Assembly: GCF_016464705.1 (NCBI RefSeq)
Contig: NZ_JAEHOB010000020.1
Coordinates: 1 to 58,930, forward strand
DNA length: 58,930 nucleotides
Reading direction: 5' to 3'
DNA from: Qaidamihabitans albus
Lineage (GTDB): Bacteria > Actinomycetota > Actinomycetes > Mycobacteriales > Pseudonocardiaceae
Both the position numbers and the translations under genes were made by a program. Positions 19,018 through 55,795 of this stretch are shown here, piece by piece (position 1 is the stretch's first letter; every line of letters starts with the position of its first letter). The notes beneath the pieces are model-generated. The model had not been told where the DNA came from, searched no databases, and was given only the letters and a program-made list of their open reading frames with translations.

Positions 19018-19062
19018 CTCGTGAGTGCGCACACGAGTTAGAACACTGTTACGCACTCACGA
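19018..19062. repeat. Dispersed gene-end palindrome, copy 1
   Basis: The arms CTCGTGAGTGC and GCACTCACGA enclose a core with CGAGTTAGAAC. It lies between the convergent aldehyde dehydrogenase and IclR genes, about 46 and 42 bases from their stops. By its asymmetric core it is oriented with the IclR strand. It is followed by a CACGAC hexanucleotide run (about 19057-19080). Confidence 0.8.
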
Positions 19063-19103
19063 CCACGACCACGACCACGAGCGCTGTCGCGGGGAGAGGA
19101 CTG

Positions 19104-19925
19104 TCAGCACGCTCCCCGCGACAGCGCAGGCAGGCGAGCCGACATGGCGCCGGCCGCGGCCCGCACGACCCTGCTGAGCCGGTCGACGTCCATTCGCTGC
19201 GATCGTCCGGTGACCGAGAGCGCCGCGACGACCTGCCCGTGATCGCCGAGCACCGGCGCCGCGATCGCGGAGACACCGGGTTCGGCCTCCTCGTGGTTGA
19301 TCCCCACTCCCCTGGCGACGGTGCGCTCCAGATCCTGGTGCAGCAGGCCGGGCAGGACGATCGTGTTGGGCGTGAGCCGGGACAGCCCCGCGTCGACCAC
19401 CCGCCGCAGCCGGTCCCGCCCGCCCCAGGCCAGGAACACCTTGCCCGTGGCCGTGCAGTGCGACGGCATCCGCCCGCCGACGCGTGAGCGCACCGCCATC
19501 GACTCCCGGCCGGTCACCTTCTCCACGAAGAGCGTGTAGACGCTGTCCGGCACGGCGAGGTGCACGTTCTCGTGGCTGGCCTCGTGCAACTGTTCGAGGT
19601 AAGGCAGCGCCGCCTGGCGCAGCAGCCGGTGCCGGGGCACCAGCTGGCCCAGCCGGAACAGCTTCGCCGCCAGCCGGTAGTGCCCCGGTCCGGACCGCTC
19701 GAGCGCGCCCCACTCCACCAGCTCACCGAGCAGCCGGTGGACCGTCGGCTTGGGCAGGCCGCTGCGCGCCGCGAGTTCCGCGAGCCCGAGGTCCGCCTCG
19801 CCCGGCAGGAAGGCGTCCAGCAGCGACAGCCCTCTGGCGAGCACCGACTTCGGTGCCGGTTCCTCGGCCTGGCCACTCTGCGCGCTCATCTGCGCGATGG
19901 TGGCCATCGCGGCGACCCCGGACAA
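19104..19925 (-). CDS. IclR-family transcriptional regulator
   Basis: This 273-residue protein has the IclR HTH at about 27-90 (SVLARGLSLLDAFL, LAELAARSGLPKPTVHRLLG). The effector domain holds the family signatures SHCTATGKVFLAW and VGINHEEAEPGVSAIAAPV. IclR proteins bind small carboxylates or aromatics and often control the adjacent catabolic genes. Here it lies 24 bases downstream of the ThDP enzyme on the same strand and faces the aldehyde dehydrogenase, so it probably regulates both. Several in-frame Met codons at the N-terminus leave the exact start uncertain. The first is used. Confidence 0.9.
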   Translation of the reverse strand: MSGVAAMATIAQMSAQSGQAEEPAPKSVLARGLSLLDAFLPGEADLGLAELAARSGLPKPTVHRLLGELVEWGALERSGPGHYRLAAKLFRLGQLVPRHRLLRQAALPYLEQLHEASHENVHLAVPDSVYTLFVEKVTGRESMAVRSRVGGRMPSHCTATGKVFLAWGGRDRLRRVVDAGLSRLTPNTIVLPGLLHQDLERTVARGVGINHEEAEPGVSAIAAPVLGDHGQVVAALSVTGRSQRMDVDRLSRVVRAAAGAMSARLPALSRGAC

Positions 19926-19949
19926 GCAGGGTTTTCATTCACCGAAAGC

Positions 19950-21668
19950 TCACACCGCGGGAACGTGCACGCTCACCACAGCCGAGCGGCCGGAGCGCAC
20001 GACGTCGAGCGCCTCCACCAGCACACCCTTGAGCTCACTGGCCACCCGCACCGTGCGGCCCCACGCGCCGCCCGCCGCCTCGGCGATGCCCGGCAGATCG
20101 GCCTCCGGGGCGAAGCTGACGTTGAAGTCGTCGCGCTCGGCGGCCACCCCGTCCGGATGCACACCGAGCGTGGACTGCTTCGGCGCCTTCCAGCCCTGGT
20201 TGTCGAAGATCACGGTCAGGCTCGGCGTGCCGTAGCGCCGGGCGACCCACTGGGCTGACGAGGGCACGCCGAAGAGGTACGAGCCGTCGCCGACGAGCGA
20301 GACGACGGTGCGGTCCGGCGCGGCGAGCTTGGCGCCGATCGCGGCGCCCGCGGACCAGCCGAGCGAACCACCGCCCGAGCCGAGCAGCGAGCCCGGCCGG
20401 GTACGCCGCAGGTGCTCGTTGACCACCTGGTAGTTGGTGATCGCCTCGGTCAGCACGAGCGTGTCGTCGTCGATGACCTCGCGCACGCAGGCCACCAGGT
20501 ACTCAGGCGTGATGACCTCACCGTCCGGGTGCTCCCGGCCGGCCAGCTCGCTGAGCTGGCGTTCGTGCTCCGCGGCCGCGGTCTCCGCCCGCCCGGCCAC
20601 GACATCCGGATCGGCGAGCTCGCGCGCCCGTTCGCGGAGCTGGGCCACTGCCGTGCCCAGGTCGGCGCGCGCGAAGCACTCGGCGGGCACGTGCCAGAGC
20701 GGCATCTGTTCCTTGACCGGGTCGATGTCGACCACGAACAGGCGGGCGCCGGCCGAGGGGCGGTTCTGGGTGGGGATCCAGGGCACGTCGCTGCCCAGCA
20801 CCAGTACGACGTCGGCGGCCTCGAGCAGCGGGTTGGCCTGCTGGGCGTTCCACTGGTAGCCCCAGTGCAGGGGGTGGTCGGCCGGGAAGTTCAGGTGCAT
20901 CGGCACGGACTCGATCACCGGCAATGCCAGCGACTCGCACAGCTCGACGAGGGCGGGTACCGCGTGCGGATCGCGGCCGAGATAGGACGTGACGACGACC
21001 GGGTTGCGCGCCCCGGCGAGCGCCTCCGCGATTCTCTCCACCACACCGGGCGCCAGCGCCGCGGGTGCCACCGGGCTGAACAGCGCGGGGTCGGCGTGCT
21101 GCTCGGGTACCTCGGCTTCCATGACCTCGCGCGGACCGACCAGGTAGACCGGGCCCGCCGGCTCGCTGCGAGCCAGTTGCAGCGCGCGGTGCACCAGTTG
21201 CTTGACGTTGTGGCCGGTGCGGATCTCGTTGTCGTACTTGGTGTAGCCGCGCACGATGCCGCGCTGGTCGTGCACGTCCTGGATCCACTGGATGAACTCG
21301 TTGCGGCTGCCGAGCAGCTCGCCTTCCTGGGTGAACGGCGAGGCACCCGCGTAGAGCAGGACGCCCACCCTGCCCTTGGCGGCGTTGTGCAGCATGCCAC
21401 CGATGTTCTGGGTGCCGCAGTCCACGTGGACGACCACGGCCTGCGGCACGCCGGTCAGCTGGGCGTAGCTGTGCGCTGCCGACATGGCGACGCTCTCGTG
21501 CGGGCAGATCACGAGTTCGGGCAGCGCGTCCGCGCCGTCTTCGGCCCGTGCCCGCGCGTAAGCCTCGACGAGGCCGGGATGGTCGCTGCCGAGGTTGGCG
21601 AACACGTACCGGACGCCGGCCTCGGCCAGCGCCTCCAGGAATGCCCTGCTCGTCGTGTATCCGCTCAC
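19950..21668 (-). CDS. Thiamine-diphosphate enzyme (acetolactate synthase / benzoylformate decarboxylase superfamily)
   Basis: This 572-residue protein has the three-domain architecture of 2-keto-acid ThDP enzymes. The cofactor-activating Glu is E58 in CPHESVAMSAAHSYAQ. The ThDP/Mg motif starts at GDGS (460-463) and ends at DNQ (489-491). The active-site loop NLGSDHPGL (25-33) carries Asp-His where benzoylformate decarboxylase has Ser-Asn, so a straightforward mandelate-pathway assignment is not supported. A substrate is not identifiable. Decarboxylation or carboligation of a 2-keto acid upstream of the neighbouring aldehyde dehydrogenase is a reasonable inference. The IclR regulator follows directly. 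Confidence 0.85.
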   Translation of the reverse strand: MSGYTTSRAFLEALAEAGVRYVFANLGSDHPGLVEAYARARAEDGADALPELVICPHESVAMSAAHSYAQLTGVPQAVVVHVDCGTQNIGGMLHNAAKGRVGVLLYAGASPFTQEGELLGSRNEFIQWIQDVHDQRGIVRGYTKYDNEIRTGHNVKQLVHRALQLARSEPAGPVYLVGPREVMEAEVPEQHADPALFSPVAPAALAPGVVERIAEALAGARNPVVVTSYLGRDPHAVPALVELCESLALPVIESVPMHLNFPADHPLHWGYQWNAQQANPLLEAADVVLVLGSDVPWIPTQNRPSAGARLFVVDIDPVKEQMPLWHVPAECFARADLGTAVAQLRERARELADPDVVAGRAETAAAEHERQLSELAGREHPDGEVITPEYLVACVREVIDDDTLVLTEAITNYQVVNEHLRRTRPGSLLGSGGGSLGWSAGAAIGAKLAAPDRTVVSLVGDGSYLFGVPSSAQWVARRYGTPSLTVIFDNQGWKAPKQSTLGVHPDGVAAERDDFNVSFAPEADLPGIAEAAGGAWGRTVRVASELKGVLVEALDVVRSGRSAVVSVHVPAV

Positions 21669-21972
21669 GCCACCACTTTCTGCTCCGGAGCCGCCGCACG
21701 GACCCTATCGCGGCCGCGCCACCGGGCGGCAACGGTCCCGTTTCGGTCACCGGAATCACCGGCGACACCGCGGAACCGAGCCCCGGCGCGGTACGTCCGA
21801 GCGGATGCGAGCACATCGTTTCCGCGGGTGACGTGGTGACGGCCGCGGCCGTCGGCGGACACGTCCGGCTGGGGGTCGGACGTGGGGCCTGCCCGTGCGC
21901 CACCACGTCACCCCGCCCGCCAATCGCGGAGCCGCCCCGCCCATCCGGGGCGGAGTGCAGGAGGATGGCCCG
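21669..21972. other. Divergent intergenic region between the ThDP enzyme and YibE/F
   Basis: These 304 bases contain no gene I can support. They must hold the promoters of both flanking genes. I see no clear -35/-10 pair, riboswitch-like fold or palindrome longer than about 7 bp. The right end contains the strong AGGAGG (21959-21964) of the YibE/F gene. Confidence 0.5.
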
Positions 21973-23349
21973 GTGCCGCGCGACAACTCCGCCGACGAGA
22001 CCGGCCCGATCCGCCGGGTGCCGGCCACGGCGTCACCGGCCTCCCCGCGCGAAGGGCGAGAGCGCCGCCCGGCCGTCCGCCAGCGGGCACCGGCCCGGAA
22101 GCCGTCCCCGGCAACGGATCACGGGCACGGACACGGGCACGGGCCGGCCGCTCCCGCTTCGCGCCGCATCCGCATCCTGCTCACCGCGCTGCTGGCTCCG
22201 CTGGCGCTGGCAGCCGTGGCCGGGGTGGCGCTGCTCTACCCGTGGGGCAGCGAGCCGCCGGTCAGCGAGACCGGCGCGGGCACGCCCGTCCACGGCGAAA
22301 TCACCACGGCCGCGCTCGGGCCATGCCTGGCGCCCGGGCAGGTGCAGGTCGGCGAGGCGCCTGCCGACGCAAGGCAGTGCCTCGACCTGGAGGTCTCGCT
22401 GACCGACGGGGAGGCGGCCGGACGGACGATCCGCAAGATGGTGGCGGTCGAGCCGAGCACCCCGAGGTTCGCCGCCGGCGACGAGATCGTGCTGTCCTAC
22501 AGCGGCGCCGGCGCCGCGAACCCGGACTCCTACCAGGTTGTCGACTTCCAGCGCGGGATGCCGCTCACCGTGCTGGCCGCGCTGTTCGCGGTCGCGGTCG
22601 TCGTCCTCGGCCGGTGGCAGGGGCTGGCCGCGCTGACCGCACTGGGGCTGAGCTTCGCGGTGATCGCCCTGTTCATCCTGCCCGCCGTCCTGGCGGGCGA
22701 GGACCCGCTGCTGGTCGCCATCGCGGGCGCGGGCCTGATCATGTTCGTCGCCCTGTACCTCACCCACGGCTTCTCCGCCCGGACGTCCGTGGCCGTGCTC
22801 GGGACACTGGTCAGCCTCGCACTCATCGGCGTCATCTCCGCCGTGTTCTCCGCGACCGCGGCGCTCACCGGCCTCGGTGACCAGACGTCCAGCCTGATCG
22901 CCTCGCTTGGGCACGGCATCGACGCGCGCGGTCTGCTGCTCGCCGGGGTGGTCATCGGCGCCCTCGGCGTCCTGGACGACGTCACGGTCACCCAGACCAG
23001 CGCGGTCTGGGAACTGCGGCGAGCGAATCCCGCGCTGAGCTGGCGCGAGCTGTACTCCGCGGCGCTGCGCATCGGGCGCGACCACGTCGGCTCGGCGGTG
23101 AACACCCTGGTCATGGCCTATGCGGGCGCGGCACTGCCGGTCCTGCTGATCGGGGCGCTCTCCGATGTCGGGGTCGGCTCGATCCTGACCTCCGAGGACA
23201 TCGCACAGGAGATCGTGCGGACACTGGCCGGCAGCATCGGCATCATCGCGGCCGTTCCGGTGACCACCGTGCTCGCGGCGCTGATCGCCGGCCGCGAGCG
23301 GGTGCCCGCCGGGACGGGCGACCACAGCAGTCACAGCGGTAACCCCTGA
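21973..23349 (+). CDS. YibE/F family membrane protein
   Basis: Start GTG 21973 has AGGAGG eight bases upstream, giving 458 residues. A disordered N-terminus with a His-rich HGHGHGHG stretch (about 50-57) precedes the first membrane helix (about 68-90). An extracytoplasmic domain of about 110 residues follows, then seven or eight helices including LTVLAALFAVAVVVLGRW and LIMFVALYLTHGF, and the conserved GVLDDVTVTQTSAVWELR loop. YibE/F proteins are predicted transporters of unknown substrate. The His run could bind metal, but that is speculation. No operon partner is obvious. Confidence 0.88.
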   Translation: MPRDNSADETGPIRRVPATASPASPREGRERRPAVRQRAPARKPSPATDHGHGHGHGPAAPASRRIRILLTALLAPLALAAVAGVALLYPWGSEPPVSETGAGTPVHGEITTAALGPCLAPGQVQVGEAPADARQCLDLEVSLTDGEAAGRTIRKMVAVEPSTPRFAAGDEIVLSYSGAGAANPDSYQVVDFQRGMPLTVLAALFAVAVVVLGRWQGLAALTALGLSFAVIALFILPAVLAGEDPLLVAIAGAGLIMFVALYLTHGFSARTSVAVLGTLVSLALIGVISAVFSATAALTGLGDQTSSLIASLGHGIDARGLLLAGVVIGALGVLDDVTVTQTSAVWELRRANPALSWRELYSAALRIGRDHVGSAVNTLVMAYAGAALPVLLIGALSDVGVGSILTSEDIAQEIVRTLAGSIGIIAAVPVTTVLAALIAGRERVPAGTGDHSSHSGNP

Positions 23350-23445
23350 TCACACGCGCCACAACGCCGGAGCCCGGCTCGGTGGACGCCCGCCCGGTGC
23401 GGTACGAAGTGCGTGACACTGGCCACCATCCGGGCAGGAGGCGCG

Positions 23446-23733
23446 ATGCCGGGTTCCGCTGCCGCCCTTCTCGGGGTTCCCCGCTCCGCACTGACCGCCG
23501 CCCGCCGTGCAGGCCGGTCCGTGCGCGACGCCGTCGAGGCACTGCCCAGGATCGTCGCCGTGCTCGGCGACGTGCGCGATACGAGCAGGCAGCTGGAACG
23601 GCTCGTCACCTTCGCGGCGCAGGAACTGCCCGAGATCGTCTACCAGCTGGAGGAGATCCGGGAACGGCTCGCCGCGATCGAGCGGAACCTGGCCGCGTCG
23701 AGCGGCAGGGAGACCGGGGCCGAACTCCGGTGA
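23446..23733 (+). CDS. Small hypothetical protein
   Basis: ATG 23446 has AGGAGG five bases upstream, giving 95 residues. The sequence is helical, with DAVEALPRIVAVLGDVRDTS and QELPEIVYQLEEIRERLAAI, which reads as an amphipathic coiled coil. There is no membrane segment or known domain. It lies 97 bases after YibE/F on the same strand and is convergent with the next gene. Similar short helical proteins occur in actinobacteria without known function. Confidence 0.65.
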   Translation: MPGSAAALLGVPRSALTAARRAGRSVRDAVEALPRIVAVLGDVRDTSRQLERLVTFAAQELPEIVYQLEEIRERLAAIERNLAASSGRETGAELR

Positions 23734-23748
23734 CGCCGTACCGCACGG

Positions 23749-24417
23749 TCATTCCAGGGTCGCCACGAACCGGCTGACGGCATCCATCGTGAAGCGCTGC
23801 GCGAACTTGCCCGAGGGGGCCGCGGACGCGAGACGGTACAGCGGGCGATCCGGCGCGGCGTCACCGCGCGCCTCCGACCGGAGCTGGGCCACCAGCAGCT
23901 CGGAGAACACCATGCCGTTGGCCTCGATGTTGTTCACCAGAGCGTCGGCGAGCCTGCGCAACGCGAGAATGCCCAGCTCCCGGCCGCCGGTGCCGGCGTA
24001 CAGCGCGAGGTCGATCTTGGCCGTCTGGCCCCGTTGCCGGGCGTTGACCAGCAGGCTCACCGTGCGCGTGCCCCGCACGTCGGTGACCAGCACGTCGATG
24101 CGCTGCGCCGCGACCAGGTCGATCCGCCGCGTGCGCCAGGTACGCACCACGACCGTCCTGCCTTCGAGCCAGAGTTGCCTGCGCGCGTTGAAGGACACGA
24201 GGTAGAGCAGCGGCAGCGCCACGACACCGGCCACGACGAGGCCGGCCACCTGACCGCCGATCAGTCCGGCGATCCCGCCGAACGCGGCGGCGAAGAGCAC
24301 CACTCCCACGAGTCCGGAGAGGCCACGGCGGCGCCGAGCGGCGGGGTTGTCCCCGTGCAGCGCGATGCGTTCGGGCTCCGGTGCGGGCTTGCGCTCGACG
24401 GGCTCTGGGTCGTTCAC
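23749..24417 (-). CDS. Membrane protein of unknown function, PH-like
   Basis: This 222-residue protein has a charged N-terminus and two adjacent membrane helices at about 34-75 (LVGVVLFAAAFGGIAGLIGG, VAGLVVAGVVALPLLYLV). A soluble domain follows with RQLWLEGRTVVVRTWRTRRI and DVLVTDVRGTRTVSLLVNAR, which looks like a bacterial pleckstrin-homology-type strand pattern. No catalytic motif is visible. The stop of the upstream MBL-fold gene (24414) overlaps this start by four bases, so the two are co-translated. Confidence 0.7.
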   Translation of the reverse strand: MNDPEPVERKPAPEPERIALHGDNPAARRRRGLSGLVGVVLFAAAFGGIAGLIGGQVAGLVVAGVVALPLLYLVSFNARRQLWLEGRTVVVRTWRTRRIDLVAAQRIDVLVTDVRGTRTVSLLVNARQRGQTAKIDLALYAGTGGRELGILALRRLADALVNNIEANGMVFSELLVAQLRSEARGDAAPDRPLYRLASAAPSGKFAQRFTMDAVSRFVATLE

Positions 24418-25082
24418 GGTGTCGTCAGGTCCTCTCGCAGGAAAGGATTCGTGGTTCTCTCTCGGCCGATGGTCGTCGTGGGCCCGTGCCCGGGCAGTAC
24501 GACGGTGTCGTCGGCGAGCGTCAGCAGTGCGCCGCGCAGCGACCGCACCAGTCCGGCGGGGTCGCCGCCCGGCAGGTCGGTGCGCCCGGCCGATCCGGCG
24601 AAGAGCGTGTCGCCGGTCAGCGCGAGCTGACCACCCTCCTCGCTCTCGACGCGGAACACGACCGATCCCGGCGTGTGCCCGGGAGTGTGGTCGACGGCGA
24701 TCCGGAGTCCGGCCAGCTCCAGCGGTCCTTCGCGCAGCTCCGCCACGTCGTCCGGCTCGCTGAGCGTCACCTCGCCGAACGCGGCGGACAGCTCCGGGCC
24801 AAGCCCGCGCAGCGGATCCGAGAGCAGCGGCCGGTCCTCGGGCCGGATGCGCACGGGCACGCCGTGCGCGTCCGCGATGGTGGCCGCCGAGTACACGTGG
24901 TCGAAGTGGCCGTGGGTGGCGAGCACGGTCGCGGGGCTTAGCCGGTGCTCGCGCAGCGCCCGCTCGACGGGCTCGGCGGCACCTTCACCTGGATCGACGA
25001 TCACGCAGTCGTGGCCCTCGGCCGTGGCGAGCAGATAGCAGTTGGCTTGGAACGCGCCGGCCGGAAACCCGACGACGAGCAC
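24414..25082 (-). CDS. MBL-fold metallo-hydrolase (glyoxalase II-like)
   Basis: I start at GTG 25082 because GGAGG precedes it and homologues begin at VLVVGFPAGAFQANCY. This gives 222 residues. The metal site HxHxDH is in THGHFDH (H57, H59, D61, H62). Further ligands are in HTPGHTPGSV, TGDTLF and PGHGP. The family hydrolyses thioesters such as S-lactoylglutathione or, in actinobacteria lacking glutathione, mycothiol-type thioesters (inference). It is co-translated with the downstream membrane protein and divergent from the cyclophilin gene. Confidence 0.9.
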   Translation of the reverse strand: MLVVGFPAGAFQANCYLLATAEGHDCVIVDPGEGAAEPVERALREHRLSPATVLATHGHFDHVYSAATIADAHGVPVRIRPEDRPLLSDPLRGLGPELSAAFGEVTLSEPDDVAELREGPLELAGLRIAVDHTPGHTPGSVVFRVESEEGGQLALTGDTLFAGSAGRTDLPGGDPAGLVRSLRGALLTLADDTVVLPGHGPTTTIGRERTTNPFLREDLTTP

Positions 25083-25207: not shown

Positions 25208-26058
<851 letters not shown>

Positions 26059-26059
<1 letters not shown>

Positions 26060-26853
26060 TGCGCGCGGAGGTCAACGGCGCTCCGGCCACCGCGGAGCAG
26101 CTCGCGGTGCCCGCGGTGGTCAACTACGGGCACTTCACGTCGATGCAGGTACGCGGCGGCCGGGTGCGCGGGCTGGAAGCCCACCTGCGGCGGCTGGCCG
26201 AGGGAACCCGGCTGCTGTTCGGCGGTGAGCTGGACACCGGGCTGGTGCGGCGGTACCTGCGGCACGCGGTCACCGGCACGGGCCCGGTCACCGCGCGGGT
26301 GACGATCTTCTCCCTCGCGGCACCCCGGGGCGGCGAGCCCGGCAGCGCGGCGCCGCCGGACGTACTGGTGGCCCTGCGGCCACCGAGCGAGGCGGCCGCA
26401 GGGCCGCTGCGGCTGCGCTCGGTGCACTACGAGCGTGTGCTCCCGCGGGTGAAGCACGTGGGGACGTTCGGCCTGTTCCACCACACCCGTGCCGCTCGGC
26501 AGGCCGGCTACGACGACGCGCTGTTCGTCACGAGCGACGCGCACGTGTCCGAGGCGTCGGTCTGGAACGCCGGCTTCTTCGACGGCGGCACGGTGATCTG
26601 GCCGCGGGCGCCGATGCTGGGCGGCGTCACGCAGGCACTGCTGAGCCGCGGCCTCGACCGGCTCGGGGTGCCCACGGTGACGCGGCCGGTGCCGCTGGCC
26701 GAGGCACGCACGCTGCGCTCCGCGTTCCTCTGCAATGCAGGCTGTGCCTGCCGTCCCGTCGCGGGCATCGACGACACCGCGCTGACCGTGGACCCGGAGC
26801 TCACCGCCCTGCTGGAGCGAGCCTACGACACCAACCCCTGGGAGCCCGTCTAG
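26059..26853 (+). CDS. Class IV PLP-dependent aminotransferase / aminodeoxychorismate lyase-like
   Basis: The GTG at 26059 overlaps the cyclophilin stop by one base, giving 264 residues. The fold-type IV signature is seen as VVNYGHFTSMQVRGGRVRGL at the N-terminus. The PLP lysine is in LPRVKHVGTFG, and SEASVWNAGF and MLGGVTQ complete the site. The family includes 4-amino-4-deoxychorismate lyase (folate pathway), D-amino-acid and branched-chain aminotransferases. The sequence alone does not decide. The typical actinobacterial annotation is aminotransferase IV. A perfect 23-bp hairpin starts at its stop codon. Confidence 0.85.
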
Positions 26854-26900
26854 CTCGTGAGTGCCTGCGCGAGTTCTAACTCGCGCAGGCACTCACGAGC
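26853..26900. repeat. Dispersed gene-end palindrome, copy 2 (perfect hairpin)
   Basis: Two 23-base arms (26853-26875 and 26878-26900) pair perfectly with a 2-base loop CT. The arms begin GCTCGTGAGTGC, and the core is CGAGTTCTAACTCG. It starts on the last base of the aminotransferase stop codon and ends ten bases before the convergent enoyl-CoA hydratase stop. It is well placed to terminate both. Confidence 0.9.
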
Positions 26901-26909: not shown

Positions 26910-27698
26910 TCAGCGGTAGGTGAAGGTGGGTGGGCGGCGCTCAAGGAAGGCGGCGACCCCTTCCGCGTAGTCCTCGCCGTGCACGGCGGAGAGGCGGATC
27001 TCGGCAACCTCGTCGTCGCTCTCCTCGTGCCCGGCGAGGATCTTCTCGATGATCCGGTTCATGCCGCGGATCGAGGCCTGCGAGCGGGAGCACAGCGTGC
27101 GGACGAACTCCATCGTGCACTCCTCCAGCTCGTCCGGTGCGAAGACGTCGTTGACGAGCCCGATCTCGCGGGCCCGCGTGGCGTCGATCAACCCGCCGGA
27201 CAGCAGGAAGTAGCGGGCGTGCGCGGGCCCGACGAGCGCCACGAGCTGGCGGGTCGACACGAAGTCGTAGACGATGCCGAGCCTGGCCGGTGTGATCCCG
27301 AAGCGGGCATCGCTCGCCGCGAACCGGAAGTCGCTGGCCACCGAGAGCTGGCAGCCGCCGCCGATGCAGTTGCCCCGGATCATCGCCACGCTCGGCTTGC
27401 ACATCCCGGTGAGCGCGCGGACCGCGCCCTCGACCGCCCGGTCGTAGGCCGCCGCGCCCTCCGCAGACGAACGCAGGTCGGAGAACTCGCTGATGTCGGC
27501 GCCCGCGGAAAAGTCCTGTCCGGCCCCGGCGAGCACCAGGACCTTGACCGCGGGATCGTGTTCGACATCGGCGACGATCTCCGGAACGGCCGACCACATC
27601 CCGTAGCTGATCGCGTTCTTCTTCTCCGGCCGCGCGAAGGTCAGCCGCGCGACCTCACCGTCGCGCTCGAACTCGACCCCTTCGGTCCCTTCGCTCAT
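26910..27698 (-). CDS. Enoyl-CoA hydratase/isomerase family protein
   Basis: With the ATG at 27698 the protein is 262 residues, the usual crotonase length. Oxyanion-hole segments are GQDFSAGADISEF and RGNCIGGGCQLSVASDFRFA. The second catalytic Glu position of true hydratases is not conserved: the motif reads RLGIVYDFVSTRQL, as in divergent family members. It may therefore be an isomerase, decarboxylase or unknown-specificity crotonase. An in-frame open stretch upstream of 27698 overlaps rsh and is not coding. It is convergent with the aminotransferase and shares the palindrome. Confidence 0.88.
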   Translation of the reverse strand: MSEGTEGVEFERDGEVARLTFARPEKKNAISYGMWSAVPEIVADVEHDPAVKVLVLAGAGQDFSAGADISEFSDLRSSAEGAAAYDRAVEGAVRALTGMCKPSVAMIRGNCIGGGCQLSVASDFRFAASDARFGITPARLGIVYDFVSTRQLVALVGPAHARYFLLSGGLIDATRAREIGLVNDVFAPDELEECTMEFVRTLCSRSQASIRGMNRIIEKILAGHEESDDEVAEIRLSAVHGEDYAEGVAAFLERRPPTFTYR

Positions 27699-45348: not shown

Positions 45349-47466
45349 ATGGCCGATAAGCAAGCGAAGAACGGGGACGCCGGAGCCGCGGTCGCTGTGG
45401 ACGATCCGCGCAAGCTGCGCAACGTCGTGCTGGTCGGCCCTTCCGGTTCCGGCAAGACGACGTTGACCGAGGCACTGCTCGTCGCGTCCGGCACGCTCGG
45501 CCGCGCTGGCTCGGTGGTGGACGGCACCACGGTGTGCGACCACGACCCGGCCGCGGTGCGGCAGCAGCGGTCGGTGGGGCTCGCGGTCGCCCCGATCGAG
45601 TACGGCGGCATCAAGATCAACCTGATCGACACCCCCGGCTACGCCGATTTCGTCGGCGAGCTGCGCGCGGGGCTGCGGGCCGCGGACGCGGCCCTCTTCG
45701 TCGTCTGCGCGGGCGAGGGCGTCGACCCGGCGACCGTGGCGCTGTGGCAGGAGTGCGCGGACGTCGGCATGCCGCGCGCGGTCGTGATCGCCCGGCTGGA
45801 CCATCCGCGGGCCGACGTCGACGGCGAGATCGCCGCGTGCCAGGCCGCGTTCGGTGCGGGTGTGCTCCCGCTGTACCTGCCTGCCGAAGGGGACCGGCAG
45901 GGCCTCGTCGGACTGCTCACGCAGCGCTTCTTCGACTACTCCGCGGGCTATCCGCCGACCGTCGGCGAACCAGGTCCCGCCGACCTCGCCAGGCTCACCG
46001 AGGCGCGCAACGAGCTGATCGAGGGGATCATCGCGGAGAGCGAGGACGAGACCCTGATGGACCGCTACCTCGGTGGTGAGGAGATCGCGGAGTCGACCCT
46101 GATCGCCGATCTGGAGACGGCCGTGGCGCGGGGCTCGTTCCATCCGGTGATTCCGGTCTGCGCGACGACCGGCGTCGGGCTCGCCGAACTGCTGGACGGC
46201 ATCGCCCGCGCGTTCCCTTCCCCACTCGAACACGCGGTGCCGGAGGTGTGCTCACCCGACGGTGTCCCGCGGCCCCGGCTGACCGCCGACCCCGGCGGCC
46301 CGCTCGCCGCGGAGGTCGTCCGTACCGCGGTCGACTCCTACGTCGGCCGGGTCTCGCTGGTGCGGGTCTTCTCCGGCACCCTGCGGCCCGAACGGCCGGT
46401 CCACGTGTCCGGCCACGGCCTCGCCGAGCGCGGCCACGAGGACCACGACGCCGACGAGCGGGTCGCGCACCTGTACTCGCCGCTCGGGACGAACCTGCGG
46501 GAGGTGCCGTACTGCGTCGCAGGCGACCTGTGCGCGCTCACGAAGGTCGGCACGGCCGAGACGGGCGACACCGTGTCCAATCCGGACGATCCGCTGCTCA
46601 TGAAACCGTGGACGATGCCGGAGCCCCTGCTCCCGGTGGCCGTGCTGGCCAGGACCCGCAGCGACGAGGACGCGCTGGCCCGTAACCTCTCCCGGCTCGT
46701 CGCGGGCGACCCGACGCTGCGGCTGGAACGCAACGCCGAGACCGCGCAGCTCGTGCTGTGGTGCATGGGCGAGGCACACGCCGACGTGGTGCTTTCCCGG
46801 CTCCGCGCGGGCGGCGCGGACGTGGGCACGGAAGAGGTGCGGATACCGCTGCGCTCGACGTTCGCAGGCAAGGCGACCGGGCACGGCAGGCACGTGAAGC
46901 AGTCCGGTGGCCACGGCCAGTACGCGGTGTGCGACATCGAGGTCGAGCCGCTCGAGCGCGGCGCGGGCTTCGAGTTCGTGGACAGGGTGGTCGGTGGAGC
47001 GGTGCCGCATCAGTTCATCCCGAGCGTCGAGAAGGGCGTCCGCGCGCAGCTGCAGAAGGGGCTCGTCGAAGGCCACCCGGTGGTGGACGTGCGGGTGGCG
47101 CTCGTCGACGGCAAGGCGCACAGCGTCGACTCCTCCGACGCCGCGTTCCAGACCGCGGGCGCGCTCGCGCTGAAGGACGCCGCCGCGAACGGTCGTGTCG
47201 TGCTGCTCGAACCGCTCGACGAGGTCACGGTCGACGTGCCGGACGAGCACGTCGGCGCGGTCCTCGGCGACCTCTCGTCCCGTCGCGGCCGGGTGCTCGG
47301 CACCGAGACGGCTCCGGGCGGGCGGACCATCGTCCGCGCCGACGTGCCGGCCACCGAACTGCTCCGTTATGCCATCGACCTGCGGTCGCTCACCTCGGGC
47401 AGCGCGACCTTCACCCGCCGCCACGCCCGCTACGATCCGCTGCCGGAAAGCCTCGCCGCCCGCTGA
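45349..47466 (+). CDS. Elongation factor G-like protein (EF-G2)
   Basis: ATG 45349 with AAGGAGG upstream gives 705 residues. EF-G domain order is kept: the G domain with P-loop [12 protein letters not shown] and [11 protein letters not shown], then domains II-V with [20 protein letters not shown] and [18 protein letters not shown]. The G4 element reads [12 protein letters not shown], with Ala-Arg-Leu-Asp in place of the canonical NKxD, and switch I reads [10 protein letters not shown]. It therefore probably binds GTP atypically. The role of actinobacterial EF-G2 in translation is not settled. It is divergent from pdxS. A palindromic repeat follows the stop. Confidence 0.92.
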
Positions 47467-47467: not shown

Positions 47468-47512
47468 CTCGTGAGTGCCTACCCGAGTTCTAACTCGCCT
47501 GCGCACTCACGA
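47468..47512. repeat. Dispersed gene-end palindrome, copy 3
   Basis: The outer arms TCGTGAGTGC and GCACTCACGA pair over 10 bp, and the inner core CGAGTTCTAACTCG pairs over 6 bp. A non-pairing 5-base segment sits on each side. It begins one base after the EF-G2 stop and ends four bases before the convergent XdhC-like stop. Confidence 0.85.
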
Positions 47513-47516
47513 CCGG

Positions 47517-48050
47517 TCACCAGGCACTCAGAAAGTCGAATCCGCCGGTGCGGCCGTTGCGGTCGGCGAGCAGGCCGGCCAGGGTCGCGACGGCGATCTC
47601 CGGTGGTGTGCGGGAGCCGATGTTCAGGCCGACCGGCCGGTGCACCCTGGCGATGTCGTCCGGGGCGACGCCCAGCTCGGCGAGCGCGCCGACGTGCGGA
47701 CCGGGGTGGCGCGGGTTGCCCATGACGCCGATCCAGCGGGCCGGCCCGGCCAGCGCGTCGCGGAGCACCTCACCCAGCTCCGCGCGGTGATGGTCGGTGA
47801 CGACGACATCGGTGTCCTCGTCGAGCCGTGGTACACCGGCGACGATGTCGAAAGAGTCCTGCACCGACCGGGCCCGATCGGCGTCGGGCTCCACCAGGAC
47901 CGGCCGGAAGCCGAGGTCACGGCCGTACGTGAGCAGGTACCGTGCCACCGGCGAGGCGAAGACGGCGATCAGTGTCCGCGCCGTGGCGGGCTGCTCGGTG
48001 TCCCCGTGCGCCACGTCGCACGCCGGGTCGTGGGCTCCGCTGGCTGCCAT
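47517..48050 (-). CDS. XdhC-like Rossmann-domain protein
   Basis: This 177-residue protein matches only the C-terminal Rossmann half of XdhC/CoxI proteins: LIAVFASPVARYLLTYGRDL, VVVTDHHRAELGEVLRDAL, RWIGVMGNPRHP, and GLNIGSRTPPEIAVATLAGL. The N-terminal XdhC_CoxI domain is absent. Family members insert or sulfurate molybdenum cofactor in xanthine or CO dehydrogenases. No such enzyme is in this window, so the partner must be elsewhere or the function differs. It lies 27 bases downstream of the Nudix gene, on the same strand. Confidence 0.85.
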   Translation of the reverse strand: MAASGAHDPACDVAHGDTEQPATARTLIAVFASPVARYLLTYGRDLGFRPVLVEPDADRARSVQDSFDIVAGVPRLDEDTDVVVTDHHRAELGEVLRDALAGPARWIGVMGNPRHPGPHVGALAELGVAPDDIARVHRPVGLNIGSRTPPEIAVATLAGLLADRNGRTGGFDFLSAW

Positions 48051-48077
48051 GCCGGCCAGTCTGCCACGGTCCCGTCC

Positions 48078-50215: not shown

Positions 50216-50218
50216 CGC

Positions 50219-51133
50219 TCAGCCCGCTTTCCGCGCGCGCACCGGGTGCTCCCGCGGCAGGTCGGCCACCCAGAACCGCTGCATCATGTGCCAGTCGGTG
50301 GGGTGCGCGGCGATGTCGCCCGCGAAGATGTCGGCGAGCGCCTGGGTGGCCGCGGGCACCTCGGCCCGGTCGTTGACCCGGATCCGCGGGTGCACTCGCA
50401 GCCCCCAGCCGCCGTCGCTGAACCAGGATCCGACCGGCAGCAGCGCGGCGCCGGTGCTCGCGGCGAGCCGGGCCGGGCCGCCCGGCAGCCGCGCCTCCGC
50501 CCCGAAGAAGGTGACCGGGACACCGGAGGTGGTGAGGTCGCGGTCCGCGACGAGGCACACCACCCGGTTCTCCCGCAGGCGTTGGAGCAGCAACCGGAAC
50601 GACGCGGCGCCGTCGGCGGGCACCACCTCGAAACCGAGCGACTCGCGGTAGGCGACGAAACGCCGGTACAGGGAATCGGGCTCGAGCCGCTCGGCGACCG
50701 TGGTGAAGCGGCCGGAGTGACCGACGAGCCACACTCCGGCCACGTCCCAGTTGCCGCTGTGCGGCAGCGCCACGACCGCACCGTTGCCCTCCGCCAGTGC
50801 GGCGTCGAGGTTCTCCACCCCGCTGATCGTCCGGTCCGCCTCCCGGTACACCGCCGTGAGGTCCATCGACGGCAGCCGGAACGCCTCCTGCCAGTAACGC
50901 GCGTATGAGCGCAGCGAGCGGCGGGTGAGCTCGTCCAGCTCGACCGGGCCCGCCTGCGGCACGACGCGCGCGAGGTTGCTGCGCAGCTGCCGGACCTTCT
51001 CACCGTCCCGCCGGGCTGCGATGTCCGCGCCGAGCGAGAACGCCGCGGTCGCGAGCGTCTCCGGCAGCGCCCGCACCAGCCGCCAGCCGACGCCGTAACC
51101 CATATCGCCGAGCCGCCCGCCGAGGCCGCTCAC
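50219..51133 (-). CDS. Phosphatidylinositol mannoside acyltransferase (HtrB/LpxL-like)
   Basis: The GTG at 51133 overlaps the pgsA stop by four bases, giving 304 residues. The catalytic H-x4-D is in LPHSGNWDVAG. Other conserved stretches are RSYARYWQEAFRLPS and VPVTFFGAEARLPGGPARLA. It adds a fatty acid to the mannose of PIM1/PIM2 on the membrane. The position between pgsA and pimA is conserved in mycobacteria and relatives (Rv2611c type). Confidence 0.92.
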   Translation of the reverse strand: MSGLGGRLGDMGYGVGWRLVRALPETLATAAFSLGADIAARRDGEKVRQLRSNLARVVPQAGPVELDELTRRSLRSYARYWQEAFRLPSMDLTAVYREADRTISGVENLDAALAEGNGAVVALPHSGNWDVAGVWLVGHSGRFTTVAERLEPDSLYRRFVAYRESLGFEVVPADGAASFRLLLQRLRENRVVCLVADRDLTTSGVPVTFFGAEARLPGGPARLAASTGAALLPVGSWFSDGGWGLRVHPRIRVNDRAEVPAATQALADIFAGDIAAHPTDWHMMQRFWVADLPREHPVRARKAG

Positions 51134-51741
51134 GACCGTGCCTCCCGCGCGGAGCCCGCGAGCGCGGCCAGCCGCTGCAGCAGCGTGACGGCCGAAAGCG
51201 CGGCGAGCAGCCACAGCGAGACCTCCACCGCATGCGGTACGCCGAAGCCCTGCAGCCCCGTTCCCGCCAGTGCGATGATCAGCCGCTCGGCCCGCTCGAC
51301 GAGGCCGCCGTCGGCGGTGAGGCCGGACGCCTCCGCGCGGGCCTTGACGTAGGAGATCACCTGCGCGAGCACGAGGCAGATCAGCGCGGCGGCGGCCGCC
51401 CGCTGGTTGTCCGCCACCGCGAACGACCACCAGGTGATCGCGGCGAACAGCGCACCGTCGGCGAGCCGGTCGCAGGTGGAGTCGAGCACACCGCCGAACG
51501 GCGTGCCCGTCCCCCGGGCCCTGGCCATCGCGCCGTCGAGCAGGTCGAGCATCGTGAAGCCCCAGACCGCGAACGTGCCGGCCAGCAACATGCCCTGGGG
51601 AAAGAAGATCAGCGAGCAGGCGACCGCGCCCACGGTGCCGAGCACGGTCATGACGTTGGGCGTGAGGCCGACCCGGACCAGCGCGGCACCGATCGGATCG
51701 GTGACACGCGAGACGGAAGCGCGCGCGAAGATGTTGAGCAT
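51130..51741 (-). CDS. pgsA: Phosphatidylinositol phosphate synthase (CDP-alcohol phosphatidyltransferase)
   Basis: The ATG at 51741 (MLNIFARASVSRV) gives 203 residues. The CDP-alcohol phosphatidyltransferase signature D-x2-DG-x2-AR is in DLLDGAMARARGTGTPFGGV, followed by LDSTCDR. About six membrane helices follow. It makes phosphatidylinositol phosphate from CDP-diacylglycerol and inositol phosphate, the first step of the PIM pathway encoded by the next genes. A longer in-frame stretch upstream overlaps the MarR gene region and is not used. Confidence 0.93.
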   Translation of the reverse strand: MLNIFARASVSRVTDPIGAALVRVGLTPNVMTVLGTVGAVACSLIFFPQGMLLAGTFAVWGFTMLDLLDGAMARARGTGTPFGGVLDSTCDRLADGALFAAITWWSFAVADNQRAAAAALICLVLAQVISYVKARAEASGLTADGGLVERAERLIIALAGTGLQGFGVPHAVEVSLWLLAALSAVTLLQRLAALAGSAREARS

Positions 51742-51845
51742 CGGTCCTACGGGTGGCAGGTTGCTGCGTGGTCGGGTTGCCGGATGAACCCTATCGAGTC
51801 GCACCGACACAACCTGCACGTATGCCGCCGAAACGCCGTCGCCGC

Positions 51846-52373
51846 TCAGCCGCCGGCGCGCTCGCCGTCCTCGAGCCGCTCCATCTCCTCGGCCTCGGCT
51901 TCGGCGCACCGGGGTGCGAGCCTGTCCCTGATCGCGGCACTGATCTCACCGAGCCGGCGCATCTGCTCGGGGGTCAACGCGTCGAAAAGGCTGGCGCGCA
52001 CGGCTTCGACGTGCCCGGGCGCGGCGTCTTCGAGCGCGGCGAGGCCGGCGGCGGTGAGGTGCGCGAAGGCGCCCCTCCGGTCGGTGGGGCAGGACTCCCG
52101 GCGAACCCAGCCGCTGGCCTCCATCCTGGCGACCGCGTGGGAGAGTCTGCTGCGCGACGAGCGCGTGGCCGAAGCGAGCTCGCTCATCCGCAGGACGCGG
52201 CCAGGCGCCTCGGAAAGCACGACGAGGATCTCGTAGTAGGCGTGCGGCATCCCGGCGTCGCGCTGGAGCTGCGCCTCCAGATGCGCCCTGAGCATGTTGA
52301 CGGCCGCCGAGAAGTCACGCCAGACGCGCTGCTCCTCGTCGCTCAGCCAGGAGGTTCCGGACATGAGATCCAT
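51846..52373 (-). CDS. MarR-family transcriptional regulator
   Basis: Start ATG 52373 has AGGGG five bases upstream, giving 175 residues. Upstream in-frame ATG 52400 is inside the operator palindrome region and is unlikely. The winged helix is LSEAPGRVLRMSELASATRS, then SRLSHAVARMEASGWVRRES with the wing PTDRRGAFAHLT. The C-terminal helices form the dimer. It is divergent from a YceI gene with two TTGAG-N2-CTCAA palindromes between them, so it probably represses YceI and itself. Confidence 0.9.
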   Translation of the reverse strand: MDLMSGTSWLSDEEQRVWRDFSAAVNMLRAHLEAQLQRDAGMPHAYYEILVVLSEAPGRVLRMSELASATRSSRSRLSHAVARMEASGWVRRESCPTDRRGAFAHLTAAGLAALEDAAPGHVEAVRASLFDALTPEQMRRLGEISAAIRDRLAPRCAEAEAEEMERLEDGERAGG

Positions 52374-52384
52374 ACTACCCCTAG

Positions 52385-52450
52385 TTGAGCCCTCAATCAT
52401 CTTCGGTTAGAGTCCTGATTGAGAGCTCAACAAACGAGCTCGCCGCAGAT
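52385..52450. promoter_or_regulatory. Paired MarR operators
   Basis: Two 12-bp palindromes, TTGAGCCCTCAA (52385-52396) and TTGAGAGCTCAA (52439-52450), share TTGAG-N2-CTCAA with 54 bases between centres. That is about five helical turns, so two dimers would lie on the same face. Further matching bases (ATCA and TGAT) flank the inner sides, extending the symmetry. Confidence 0.8.
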
Positions 52451-52466
52451 CTCTTGGAGGAAACAG

Positions 52467-53021
52467 ATGACCACCAGCGCCGCGACCGCGGAGATTCCCG
52501 GCTACACCGTCGGCACCTGGGTGATCGACCCGGTGCACTCCGACGTCACGTTCACCGTCCGCCACCTCGGCGTATCGAAGGTCCGCGGCCGGTTCAGCAT
52601 CTTCGAGGGCGAGATCGTCACGGCGAGCGACCTGGCCGGCTCCTCGGTGACCGCGACGATCCAGGCAGGCAGCATCGACACCAACAACGAGCAGCGCGAC
52701 GGCCACGTCAAGAGCGCCGACTTCCTCGACATCGAGCAGTTCGAGACCCTGACCTTCCGCTCGACCGGTGTCCGGACCGACGGCGAGGACTACCTCGTCG
52801 ACGGTGAGCTGACCCTGCACGGCGTGACCAGGCCGGTGACCTTGCGCACCGAGCTCGGCGGCTTCGGCCCCGGCATGACCGAGGGCAGCACGGTGCTCGG
52901 TGTCTCGGCCTCGACGGAGATCAACCGCAGCGACTTCGGCGTCGGCGCCACGATCCCGGCCGCCGTCGTCAGCGAGAAGATCAGGATCGAGCTGAACATC
53001 GAGGCCGGGCTGCAGGCCTGA
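52467..53021 (+). CDS. YceI-family lipid-binding-like protein
   Basis: ATG 52467 with TTGGAGGA upstream gives 184 residues. The YceI lipocalin-like fold is recognised by WVIDPVHSDVTFTVRHLGVS, VRGRFSIFEGEIVTASDL and TLHGVTRPVTLRTELGGFGP. No signal peptide is seen, so it is probably cytoplasmic, as in many actinobacterial members. Family proteins bind isoprenoid-type lipids. The pairing with a MarR regulator that reads two operator sites suggests an inducible stress or lipid response (inference). It is inserted between HIT and pgsA. Confidence 0.9.
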   Translation: MTTSAATAEIPGYTVGTWVIDPVHSDVTFTVRHLGVSKVRGRFSIFEGEIVTASDLAGSSVTATIQAGSIDTNNEQRDGHVKSADFLDIEQFETLTFRSTGVRTDGEDYLVDGELTLHGVTRPVTLRTELGGFGPGMTEGSTVLGVSASTEINRSDFGVGATIPAAVVSEKIRIELNIEAGLQA

Positions 53022-53032
53022 GGAGCCGGAAC

Positions 53033-53599
53033 CTACCAGGCGTCGGCCAGCAGTTGCCGGGTGTCCCCGAGCAGCTGCGGCAGCACTTTCGTATGGCCGA
53101 CGACCGGCATGAAGTTGGCGTCGCCGCCCCACCTGGGCACCACGTGCTGGTGCAGGTGGGCGGCGATGCCCGCCCCGGCGATGACTCCCTGGTTCATCCC
53201 GATGTTGAACCCGTGGGCGCCGGAGACCGAGCGCACCACCCGCATCGCGCGCTGGGTGAACTCCGCGAGCTCGAGGGTCTCCTCGGTGGCCAGGTCCGTG
53301 TAGTCCGCGACATGGCGGTACGGCACGACCATCAGGTGCCCGGGGTTGTACGGATACAGGTTCAGCACCGCGTACACCGTGCGCCCGCGCGCGAGGATGA
53401 GCGCCTCGGCGTCCTCCAGGCTCACCAGCCTGCAGAACGGGCAGCCGGTCGGCTCGTCGCCCTCGGCCTTGTTCTCGCCCTGGACATAGGCCAGCCGGTG
53501 TGGGGTCCACAGCCGCTGCAGCGGGTCCGGGACCCCCACCCCGTCCTGGCCGACGATCTCCGGACCGGTGTCCGGCCGGCCCCGCTCGCCCTCACCGGC
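53033..53599 (-). CDS. HIT-domain protein (Ap4A-phosphorylase-like)
   Basis: The histidine triad is [10 protein letters not shown] near the C-terminus. Earlier blocks are [40 protein letters not shown] and [13 protein letters not shown]. The first CxxC may bind zinc. The family cleaves dinucleoside polyphosphates. The start is uncertain: TTG 53599 overlaps the thrS stop, and GTG 53539 is an alternative. The adjacency thrS-HIT-pgsA is the normal actinobacterial order, here with the MarR/YceI pair inserted after it. Confidence 0.88.
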
Positions 53600-55640
53600 C
53601 AACGAGGGCTCCCAGCGCCTCGGCGTTCGGCGACGCGTTCTCCCGGCGCGCAATCCAGCCCGCGATCGCGTCCACCGCCTCGGCCACGGGTACGGCGTTG
53701 ATCTGGCCGCCGTCCCGGAACCGGAAGGAGACGGCACCCGCCTCGACGTCCTTTCCGCCTGCCAGCAGCATGAACGGCACCTTCTGCGTGGTGTGGTTGC
53801 GAATCTTCTTCTGCATCCGGTCGTCGCCGGTGTCCACCTCGGCGCGAATCCCCTTCGCCCGCAACGCCTTCTCCACGCCGAGCAGATGGTCCACGTGCTC
53901 GTCGGCGATCGGGATGCCCACCACCTGAACCGGCGACAGCCAGGCCGGGAACGCGCCCGCGTAGTGCTCGGTGAGCACTCCGAAGAACCGCTCGATGGAG
54001 CCGAACAGCGCCCGGTGGATCACCACCGGGGTCTGCCGGGAGCCGTCCGGTGCCGTGTACTCCAGCTCGAACCGCCTGGGGTGGTTGAAGTCGAGCTGGA
54101 TGGTGGACATCTGCCAGGTACGCCCGATCGCGTCGCGGGCCTGCACCGAGATCTTCGGCCCGTAGTAGGCCGCGCCACCCGGGTCGGGGACGAGTTCGAG
54201 GCCGGACTCCTCCGCGGCCTGGCGCAGGGTCTCGGTTGCCTCGTCCCACTCCTGCTGCTCGCCGATGAACTTCCCGGACTCGCCCCGGGTGGACAGCTCC
54301 AGGTAGAAGTCGGAGAGGCCGTAGTCGGCCAGCAGGTCCAGCACGAACCGCAGCAGCGACCGCAGCTCGCCCGGCATCTGCTCCTTCGTGCAGTAGATGT
54401 GCGAGTCGTCCATGGTCAGCCCGCGCACGCGGGTGAGGCCGTGCACGACGCCGGACTTCTCGTACCGGTACACCGTCCCGAACTCGAACAGCCGCAGCGG
54501 AAGCTCACGGTAGGACCGCCCGCGGGACCGGAAGATCAGGTGGTGCATCGGGCAGTTCATCGCCTTGAGGTAGTAGTCCTCACCCTCGAACGGGATCGGC
54601 GGGAACATCGTGTCCGCGTAGTACGGCAGATGGCCGGAGGTGTGGAACAGCCCGCTCTTGGTGATGTGCGGGGTGTTCACGAACTCGTAGCCGGACTCCT
54701 CGTGCCGCCTGCGCGAGTAGTTCTCTAGCTCGCGGCGGATGATCCCGCCCTTCGGGTGGAACACGGCGAGCCCGGAGCCGATCTCCTCGGGGAAAGAGAA
54801 CAGGTCCAGCTCGGCGCCGAGCTTGCGGTGATCACGCCGCTCCGCCTCGGCGAGCAGCTCCAGGTAGGCGTCCTGCGCCTCCTGCGACTCCCATGCGGTG
54901 CCGTAGATCCGCTGCAGCTGCGGGTTCTTCTCGTCGCCACGCCAGTACGCCGCCGCCACGCGGGTCAGCTTGAACGCCGGGATGTGCTTCGTGGTCGGCA
55001 CGTGCGGGCCGCGGCACAGGTCGCTCCACACGCGTTCCCTGGTGCGCGGGTCGAGGTTGTCGTAGATGGTCAGCTCTCCCCCGCCGACCTCCATCACCTC
55101 GGAGGTGTCCACAGTGTCCAGCGAGCCTGCCTCGGACTTGAGGTCGACGAGCTCCAGCTTGAACGGCTCGCCTGCCAGCTCCTCCCTGGCCGCCTCGACC
55201 GAATCCACCACGCGGCGGGAGAACTGCTGGGATCCCTTGACGATCTGCTTCATGCGCTTCTCGAGCGCCTGCAGGTCCTCCGGGGTGAACGGGGTCTCCA
55301 CGGCGAAGTCGTAGTAGAAGCCGTCCCTGACCGGGGGCCCGATGCCGAGCTTCGCGTCCGGGAACTGCTGTTGCACGGCCTGCGCGAGCACGTGCGCGGC
55401 CGAGTGCCGGAGCACGCTGCGGCCGTCCTCGGTGTTCGCGGCGACCGGCTCCACCTCGACGTCCTCCGCCGGGGTCCAGGCCAGATCGCGCAGCGCGCCC
55501 TCCGGGTCCCGCACCACGACGACGGCTTCGGCGCCCTTGACCGGCAGCCCGGCCTCGCGCACCGCGGTACCCGCCGTAGTGCCTGCCGGTACCACCACGC
55601 GCTCGGCGGGCACGGCCGGGACTGACGACGGCTGGGACAC
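53592..55640 (-). CDS. thrS: Threonine-tRNA ligase
   Basis: ThrRS has 682 residues. There is a TGS-like N-terminus, then the editing domain with [20 protein letters not shown] (HxxxH zinc ligands). The catalytic domain has [20 protein letters not shown], the zinc cysteine in [11 protein letters not shown], motif 2 [20 protein letters not shown], and motif 3 [17 protein letters not shown]. The C-terminus is the anticodon-binding fold. It is preceded by 155 bases that include copy 4 of the palindrome. I saw no clear T-box or attenuator. Confidence 0.97.
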
Positions 55641-55749
55641 GGTGGGCTCCTTCGGCTGGCTGAGCTGTGCTGAAAGCTGCGCAGGGTCGTGCGCGGGTTT
55701 GTCCTACCCTGCCGATGCTATCCGCCGTCCACCGTTACCCCGCCGAGCC

Positions 55750-55795
55750 CTCGTGAGTGCGCACACGAGTTAGAACGCGGGTCGCCACTCACGAG
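55750..55795. repeat. Dispersed gene-end palindrome, copy 4
   Basis: CTCGTGAGTGC (left) and CACTCACGAG (right) enclose CGAGTTAGAAC. It abuts the stop codon of the sugar transferase (55796), and in the transcript direction it is the first sequence after the stop. It shares its left half almost exactly with copy 1. Confidence 0.8.

Follow-up and report, generated by a model that had tools for sequence, protein, structure and literature searches.

A stretch of 58,930 nucleotides from Qaidamihabitans albus (contig NZ_JAEHOB010000020.1, positions 1 to 58,930; hereafter the window) carries four copies of a palindromic element placed at gene ends, and these copies are confirmed as real members of a large, dispersed palindrome family. 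The explanation which we favour, with moderate confidence, is that of a family of Pseudonocardiaceae resembling the repetitive extragenic palindromes known as REP or REPIN, which would fill slots for a bidirectional 3'-end hairpin and would spread by a mechanism that reads its arms. A first-pass annotation, made from the letters of the window alone, had pointed out the four palindromes, described their conserved arms, asymmetric core and covarying interiors, and proposed either a selected hairpin, such as a bidirectional terminator, or a REP-like mobile palindrome. All four copies were located at the positions it gave, and the structural description was borne out on a larger sample.

The anatomy of the element was determined in the window's own genome (G000; 6.53 Mb in 63 contigs), from which 857,958 bases were sampled, consisting of contig C1, 160 kb of C2 and the window. 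This sample yielded 78 copies with at most two arm mismatches, and counts for Q. albus refer to it unless the genome is named. The unit is 46 bases long and consists of an arm, CTCGTGAGTG or GTCGTGAGTG, an interior of 26 bases and the inverse arm. The core of the arm pair is formed by the 9-base words TCGTGAGTG and CACTCACGA, inverted and 26 bases apart, and the centre of the interior, which is strand-asymmetric, usually reads GTT-AG-AAC on one strand and GTT-CT-AAC on the other. Exact CGTGAGTG/CACTCACG pairs number 74, and in 73 of them the gap is 26 bases; a single block-shuffled version of the sample contained 0. Pairs with this gap rise only to 81 when up to three mismatches are allowed, and most copies are therefore arm-intact, with hardly any decayed tail. 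Arm cells depart from the consensus in 6 of 1404 cases in Q. albus and in 5 of 324 in the 18 copies of a congener (G001), and the AG/CT centre is present in 76 of 78 and 18 of 18 copies, respectively. In the congener the base preceding AG varies in 9 of 18 copies and its partner A in 1 of 18; in Q. albus the two vary about equally (3 of 78 vs 2 of 78). As many as 150 of the 164 TCGTGAGTG arms lie within elements, and 14 lie outside, compared with about 4 expected. An apparent word pair with a gap of 14 was discarded, as in the 25 of its 49 cases that were inspected it is an overlap inside the same elements.

The interior is variable and genome-specific, differing between genomes while arms and spacing barely vary. 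In Q. albus, positions 11-36, 12-35 and 13-34 match each other above shuffles. Covariation was assessed on 40 aligned copies out of 98 distinct ones from Q. albus, its congener, Amycolatopsis and five named records; since these were taken with exact arms, their arm invariance holds by construction. Paired cells amounted to 90.8% against 75.6% after shuffling, cells changed on both sides to 140 against 60, and the covariation score to 0.342 against 0.093, with slid controls not exceeding 0.087. A non-matching half (AACACTGTTACG and its kin) lies 3' of the AG centre in 14 of the 76 AG-centred copies and 5' of it in none, and it is often accompanied by a further TGGTCACC/GGTGACC pair on the outside. 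Some Q. albus copies, for instance those in the window at 19018-19063 and at C1:306354, C1:426466 and C2:94901, represent a long form with this additional outer inverted repeat (TGGTCACC ... GGTGACC) and an asymmetric half, which occurs in symmetric form in genus g3.

The Q. albus genome holds 457 matches to the loose pattern GTGAGTG-N20..32-CACTCAC and 449 to the strict pattern TCGTGAGTG-N24..28-CACTCACGA, with 0 in the control for either, and the congener holds 141 and 135. Strict copies were found in 157 of 390 genomes of the family and in 20 of 46 genera, ranging from 0 to 489 per genome (control 0), and one genus, g16, read as Amycolatopsis, spans this whole range. Two genomes that are both 91-92% identical to a third (G136) over the anchor region differ widely, with 7 copies in G134 and 391 in G156. 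The element is rare outside the family Pseudonocardiaceae: in a sample of the order (397 genomes, 27 with matches), 4 of 318 non-family genomes hold 9 copies in total, mostly with other centres, and in a sample of the class the element occurs in 3 of 394 genomes, Q. albus included. No description or name for it turned up in the open-licence literature, in agreement with the first-pass annotation, which knew of none; papers matching the exact arm words were judged unrelated on their titles and the beginnings of their abstracts, and a plasmid search with one copy returned 6 records with a best E-value of 0.6. This hairpin family of some soil actinobacteria is apparently without a name in the literature.

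Enrichment at stop codons and in convergent gaps had been proposed as a check on the initial observation. Copies lie within 30 nucleotides of a stop codon in 59 of 78 cases and in convergent gaps in 42 of 78, against 10% and 11% under random intergenic placement, a control restricted to fully intergenic positions and hence an imperfect match for real copies, which may overlap a stop. The remaining copies fall in codirectional (28) and divergent (7) gaps or elsewhere (1), and 41 of 136 convergent gaps hold an element. Codirectional copies are within 30 nucleotides of the upstream stop in 20 of 28 cases and of the next start in 10 of 28; for these 10 there is no room for an ordinary promoter in between, if starts were called correctly. 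The stop codon itself lies inside the element for 38 of 793 called genes, most commonly as the TGA of CTCGTGA, an offset shared by 27 gene ends. One copy begins 11 nucleotides past a tRNA-Asp gene, which indicates that the role of the element is not tied to translation. Proximity to stops recurs in 17 of 18 copies of the congener and in 19 of 23 copies from four genomes of Amycolatopsis. The orientation of the centre showed no significant preference relative to the upstream gene in the 28 codirectional copies (18 CT, 9 AG, 1 other), and no replication-strand bias was seen in the first 1.74 Mb of another genome, G191 (28 plus vs 38 minus copies). The initial observation withstood its refutation test as far as this was run: copies occur throughout the genome, concentrate strongly near stops and in convergent gaps, and carry compensatory changes.

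The comparison of orthologous gaps shows how exchangeable the occupants of these positions are. Between Q. albus and its congener, 325 reciprocal best hits (median identity 83.6%) gave 253 gaps, with the element in both genomes in 9, in Q. albus only in 20, in the congener only in 3 and in neither in 221; the 9 shared gaps compare with about 2 expected from the margins, as worked by hand. In gaps common to both, the arms are kept and the interior follows each genome's own consensus. A comparison with 15 other species of Amycolatopsis, most of which share 89-95% identity with G136 over the longer anchor matches, gave 13 slots, of which 4 could be traced in a single genome and 9 in at least three. 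The element is present in every genome compared at 2 of these 9 slots and missing from some genomes at 7. Most alleles lacking it hold another palindrome, such as ATGAAAGG... or GTGAAGG... hairpins, and 20 of 27 folded alleles (two more, containing N, were excluded) are more stable than -33.7 kcal/mol, the 5% tail of random 100-nucleotide stretches, a comparison to be read with the reservations that slots were picked because one genome has the element, that the species are related and that some slots are longer than the control stretches. The 7 exceptions comprise three short-gap alleles, one remodelled remnant, one interrupted element and two alleles at -32.9 and -30.8 kcal/mol. Moreover, the AG/CT orientation differs between genomes at 5 of the 6 slots where at least two genomes carry the element, one of these having differing flanks. 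That related species often carry a different hairpin at the same place suggests that the gene-end spot needs a hairpin, though its sequence is replaceable. The wide variation of copy number among relatives, the genome-specific interiors and the flipped centres indicate in turn that copies are being renewed.

The slot following the window's gene similar to that of elongation factor G (EF-G) offers a broader example. Here the element was flagged in the window itself and at 5 of 80 loci, namely those of Amycolatopsis sp. 2-2, A. eburnea, A. vancoresmycina, A. rifamycinica and a record named A. orientalis DSM 43388. A degenerate copy was recognised by eye in A. nivea, and other strong hairpins are found in P. 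endophytica, A. xylanica and A. orientalis KCTC 9412; several others have short hairpin-less gaps, and a few of the 80 loci end too soon. Further palindrome families seen in the same kind of slot at gene ends include ATGAAAGG, GTGAAGG, CCTCTGAATGCGG and arrays of AACTCGCGTGATC (Amycolatopsis slots L095-L150 and loci L151-L230). In the G123 slot orthologous to G136:C14:50373 (L123), about 150 extra bases split the element in its centre, just after GTTAG.

As an RNA, the element folds with a median of about -28 kcal/mol on either strand in Q. albus, and the gene-end counts together with folding place a stable hairpin directly 3' of stop codons in Q. albus, the congener and Amycolatopsis. Termination of transcription, or protection of the transcript's 3' end, is a likely, though putative, role. 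Under the favoured reading, transcription from either side would yield a transcript that folds into a hairpin immediately after the stop codon and is thereby ended or protected, and selection for a bidirectional 3'-end hairpin would keep the slot. The family would spread and renew its copies through a mechanism reading the arms and perhaps the asymmetric centre; the constant arms would serve the element's own propagation, and the position at gene ends would serve, or spare, the host. Both proposals of the first-pass annotation thus found partial support: the exchange of hairpins at the slots agrees with a functional hairpin at 3' ends, and the swings in copy number and the interiors peculiar to each genome agree with a palindrome that propagates. 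A U-tract and the known REP transposase were not found in Q. albus.

Several observations weigh against this reading. As regards the RNA, at least three T within 8 nucleotides were found at 17 of 156 element ends in Q. albus, against a background of 16%, and so no U-tract is present there. A passage of PMC8269248 on Streptomyces clavuligerus reports more U-poor structured 3' ends than U-rich ones (353 vs 182), and on that account the missing tract does not exclude a 3'-end role. G191 has a weak T excess, with TTT in 21 of 128 ends within 15 nucleotides against AAA in 6 of 128, and flanks often begin with CCCC. In Q. albus, an excess of other hairpins in the convergent gaps that lack the element is not clear when matched windows are used (p=0.13); the same comparison of hairpin complementarity looked stronger with unmatched windows and lost its significance on matching. 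As regards the slots, several tight convergent pairs have a gap of 3-15 nucleotides in the congener, with no hairpin by eye, where Q. albus has the element, and a hairpin is therefore not always required; at slot G156 62747 three relatives have no strong hairpin, and in G191 only 28 of 49 copies lie within 30 nucleotides of a stop, in regions picked for holding copies. As regards structure, the AG centre is not universal, many G003 copies among the matches listed reading GTTATAAC. In the covariation set, neither the number of doubly changed pairs (9 vs 8.1, reached in 48 of 500 shuffles) nor that of further pair types (32 vs 29.3, reached in 56 of 500) stands out, and interior positions 10, 12, 13 and 15 in G191 pair in only 29-56% of 45 copies, which departs from a pure pairing rule.

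Part of this evidence would suit a purely selfish mobile palindrome of no use to the host, whose gene-end bias would reflect the purging of insertions elsewhere, tight convergent gaps being the safest place as they offer no promoter to break. The contrast between G134 and G156, the genome-specific interiors, the short gaps of the congener, the stop codons lying inside elements and the indifference of the centre to the upstream gene all agree with such an origin. We nevertheless regard it as unlikely, because so few decayed copies or single arms exist, codirectional copies favour the upstream stop over the next start, alleles without the element usually hold another strong hairpin, and one copy caps a tRNA gene. 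The same exchange of unrelated hairpins of similar stability counts against the idea that gyrase or a nucleoid protein binds the element as DNA at gene ends, where supercoils accumulate between converging transcripts, and that the hairpin is a by-product of the two-fold symmetry of a dimeric site. Arms constant in sequence beyond mere pairing, a constant 26-base spacing and the strongest enrichment in convergent gaps would be expected of it; a covarying interior is not needed by a protein touching only arms and centre, and some species of the same genus have 0 copies, which makes this account improbable. Very improbable is a stationary family of terminators evolving in place and alike only through a preference of RNA polymerase for the arms: gene-end position, folding on both strands, the U-poor ends of the S. 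clavuligerus passage, the slight surplus of T behind the stem in G191 and a few palindromes with the same arms outside the family speak for it, yet it leaves the presence or absence at orthologous gaps of related species, the asymmetric centre with no obvious reason to be kept and the one-sided recurrence of the non-matching half at unrelated sites without an account.

Comparison with known systems places the element closest to REPINs, as characterised in passages of PMC3116915, PMC3733652 and PMC8049555: short, high-copy extragenic palindromes with conserved ends and a less conserved spacer undergoing compensatory changes, found in Pseudomonas and E. coli mostly between convergent or unidirectional genes, downstream of coding regions. 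The present palindrome likewise combines high copy number outside genes, conserved ends and a spacer that covaries. It differs in that 22 of 24 chosen genomes, Q. albus among them, have no match to the REP-associated tyrosine transposase (RAYT; Y1_Tnp), that inspection revealed no consistent GTAG/CGTC foot tag, that single arms are rare here, whereas singlets of REP are described as common remnants, and that its slots are also taken by unrelated hairpins. Given the absence of RAYT and foot tag, it is called REPIN-like and not classed as a REPIN. Bidirectional intrinsic terminators and the U-poor ends of actinobacteria share with it a stable hairpin just past stops, on both strands and with convergent gaps favoured; the element differs in its lack of a U-tract in Q. 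albus (with the weak T excess in G191), in an arm sequence constant over hundreds of sites, in its asymmetric centre and in its patchiness among relatives.

Miniature inverted-repeat transposable elements (MITEs) are similarly non-coding, high in copy number and patchy between relatives, with inverted repeats; the element differs from them in lacking target-site duplications, and no transposon with its ends was recognised by eye in the stretches read. Across the 78 copies, duplications of 2 and 3 bases occurred 8 and 2 times against 9.7 and 2.7 expected, those of 4, 5, 7 and 8 bases 0 times, and one of 6 bases once against 0.01 expected, and a classical MITE was rejected accordingly. The DNA uptake sequences of Neisseria consist of a fixed word of about 10 bases, often present as an inverted pair downstream of genes. 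The element resembles them as a fixed word in inverted pairs at gene ends; its word is seldom alone and its spacing is fixed too, and uptake sequence pairs were set aside. Integron-like attC sites, considered since copies cap gene ends, were dropped by inspection, as they have GTT/AAC at their ends and GTT/AAC is central here; the integrase was not searched for.

The search for a mover gave largely negative results. No match to RAYT (PF01797) was found in G000, G001, G156, G200, G191, G136, G181, G147, G189, G198, G244, G245, G347 and nine others of the chosen genomes, G384 and G403 having one each; among 41 relatives, 6 carry one, with none in G000, G001, G003, G004, G005 or G016. RAYT-driven REP was consequently set aside for Q. 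albus. In the 78 copies and their flanks the feet read [C/G]TCGTGAG on both sides and the flanks vary. No mover or transposon with the same ends was recognised by eye between neighbouring copies in 0.86 Mb of Q. albus and eight stretches of G191, most genes there being without a family search. A bolder proposal, possible rather than probable, is that the gene ends of Pseudonocardiaceae offer generic slots for hairpins, with several unrelated palindrome families competing to fill them, the resident bidirectional hairpin being replaced whole while flanks and stops adjust. The TCGTGAGTG family would then be moved by a non-RAYT machinery recognising arms and asymmetric centre, flipping or remodelling interiors in concert within each genome and sometimes bracketing defence cassettes.

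Two close pairs of copies bracket defence-like genes. In Q. albus, two identical copies in the same orientation flank an AAA_14 ATPase gene (L058:9318-10981; C1 at about 549317-550980), which was missed by the gene caller and weakly matches the candidate defence model PDC-S01 (E 8e-19). In G191, a PtuA-like ATPase and a PtuB-like protein lie between two copies of equal orientation (L231:1011-2976); PADLOC models assign them to a Septu-type defence pair (E 2e-150 and 2e-93). Both cases were selected from among close pairs and are no proof, but sites of the element may act as landing places. A tandem duplication in which an element is included contains an unread base (N) at L057:10721, which points to an assembly join, so that the pair duplicated at C1 530663/531129 is possibly an artefact.

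The four copies of the window are listed in Table 1, with genes called, as for the position counts above, by a simple codon-usage script trained on the Q. albus genome, not a published caller. These independent calls reproduced the reported arrangement, with copies 1-3 between convergent stops, the fourth abutting one, and copies 2, 3 and 4 starting at most one base past a stop. Copy 2 is, by eye, the only one of the four with a perfectly paired interior, and copy 1 has a hybrid interior that pairs poorly. Allowing one mismatch, the window contains the arm CTCGTGAGTGC 10 times, where 2.8 would be expected, and 8 of the occurrences are the arms of the four copies. A partnerless arm GTCGTGAGTGC lies at 14937-14947, within the gene at 13188-14954 (-) and near its start. 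At the gathering score, Rfam matches in the window were limited to two tRNAs, with no family match for the element. The nearest named match to one window protein came from Prauserella shujinwangii (89% identity), the window's own record perhaps being excluded.

Table 1. Copies of the palindromic element in the window and their neighbouring genes
Feature	Position	Centre on + strand	Interior	Neighbouring genes
Copy 1, 46-base palindrome	19018-19063	AG	hybrid (asymmetric), pairs poorly	convergent genes 17511-18971 (+) and 19104-19907 (-)
Copy 2, palindrome	46-base unit 26854-26899; 26853-26900 with an extra outer G-C pair	CT	perfectly paired	gene 26059-26853 (+) and convergent gene 26910-27698 (-); the copy's first G (26853) is the last base of the stop codon
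Copy 3, palindrome	47468-47513	CT		EF-G-like gene 45349-47466 (+), stop one base before; gene 47517-48014 (-), stop 3 bases away
Copy 4, palindrome	55750-55795	AG		adjoins the stop codon of gene 55796-57253 (-)

How transcripts end in GC-rich actinobacteria, where clear U-tracts are missing, is poorly settled. One constant word at hundreds of gene ends, with relatives lacking it, provides a natural experiment in which the same slot holds this hairpin, another one or none. If the family is mobile without RAYT, it would reveal an unknown way of spreading short palindromes. Furthermore, Amycolatopsis and its relatives are antibiotic producers, for which 3'-end hairpins working in both orientations would be practical parts.

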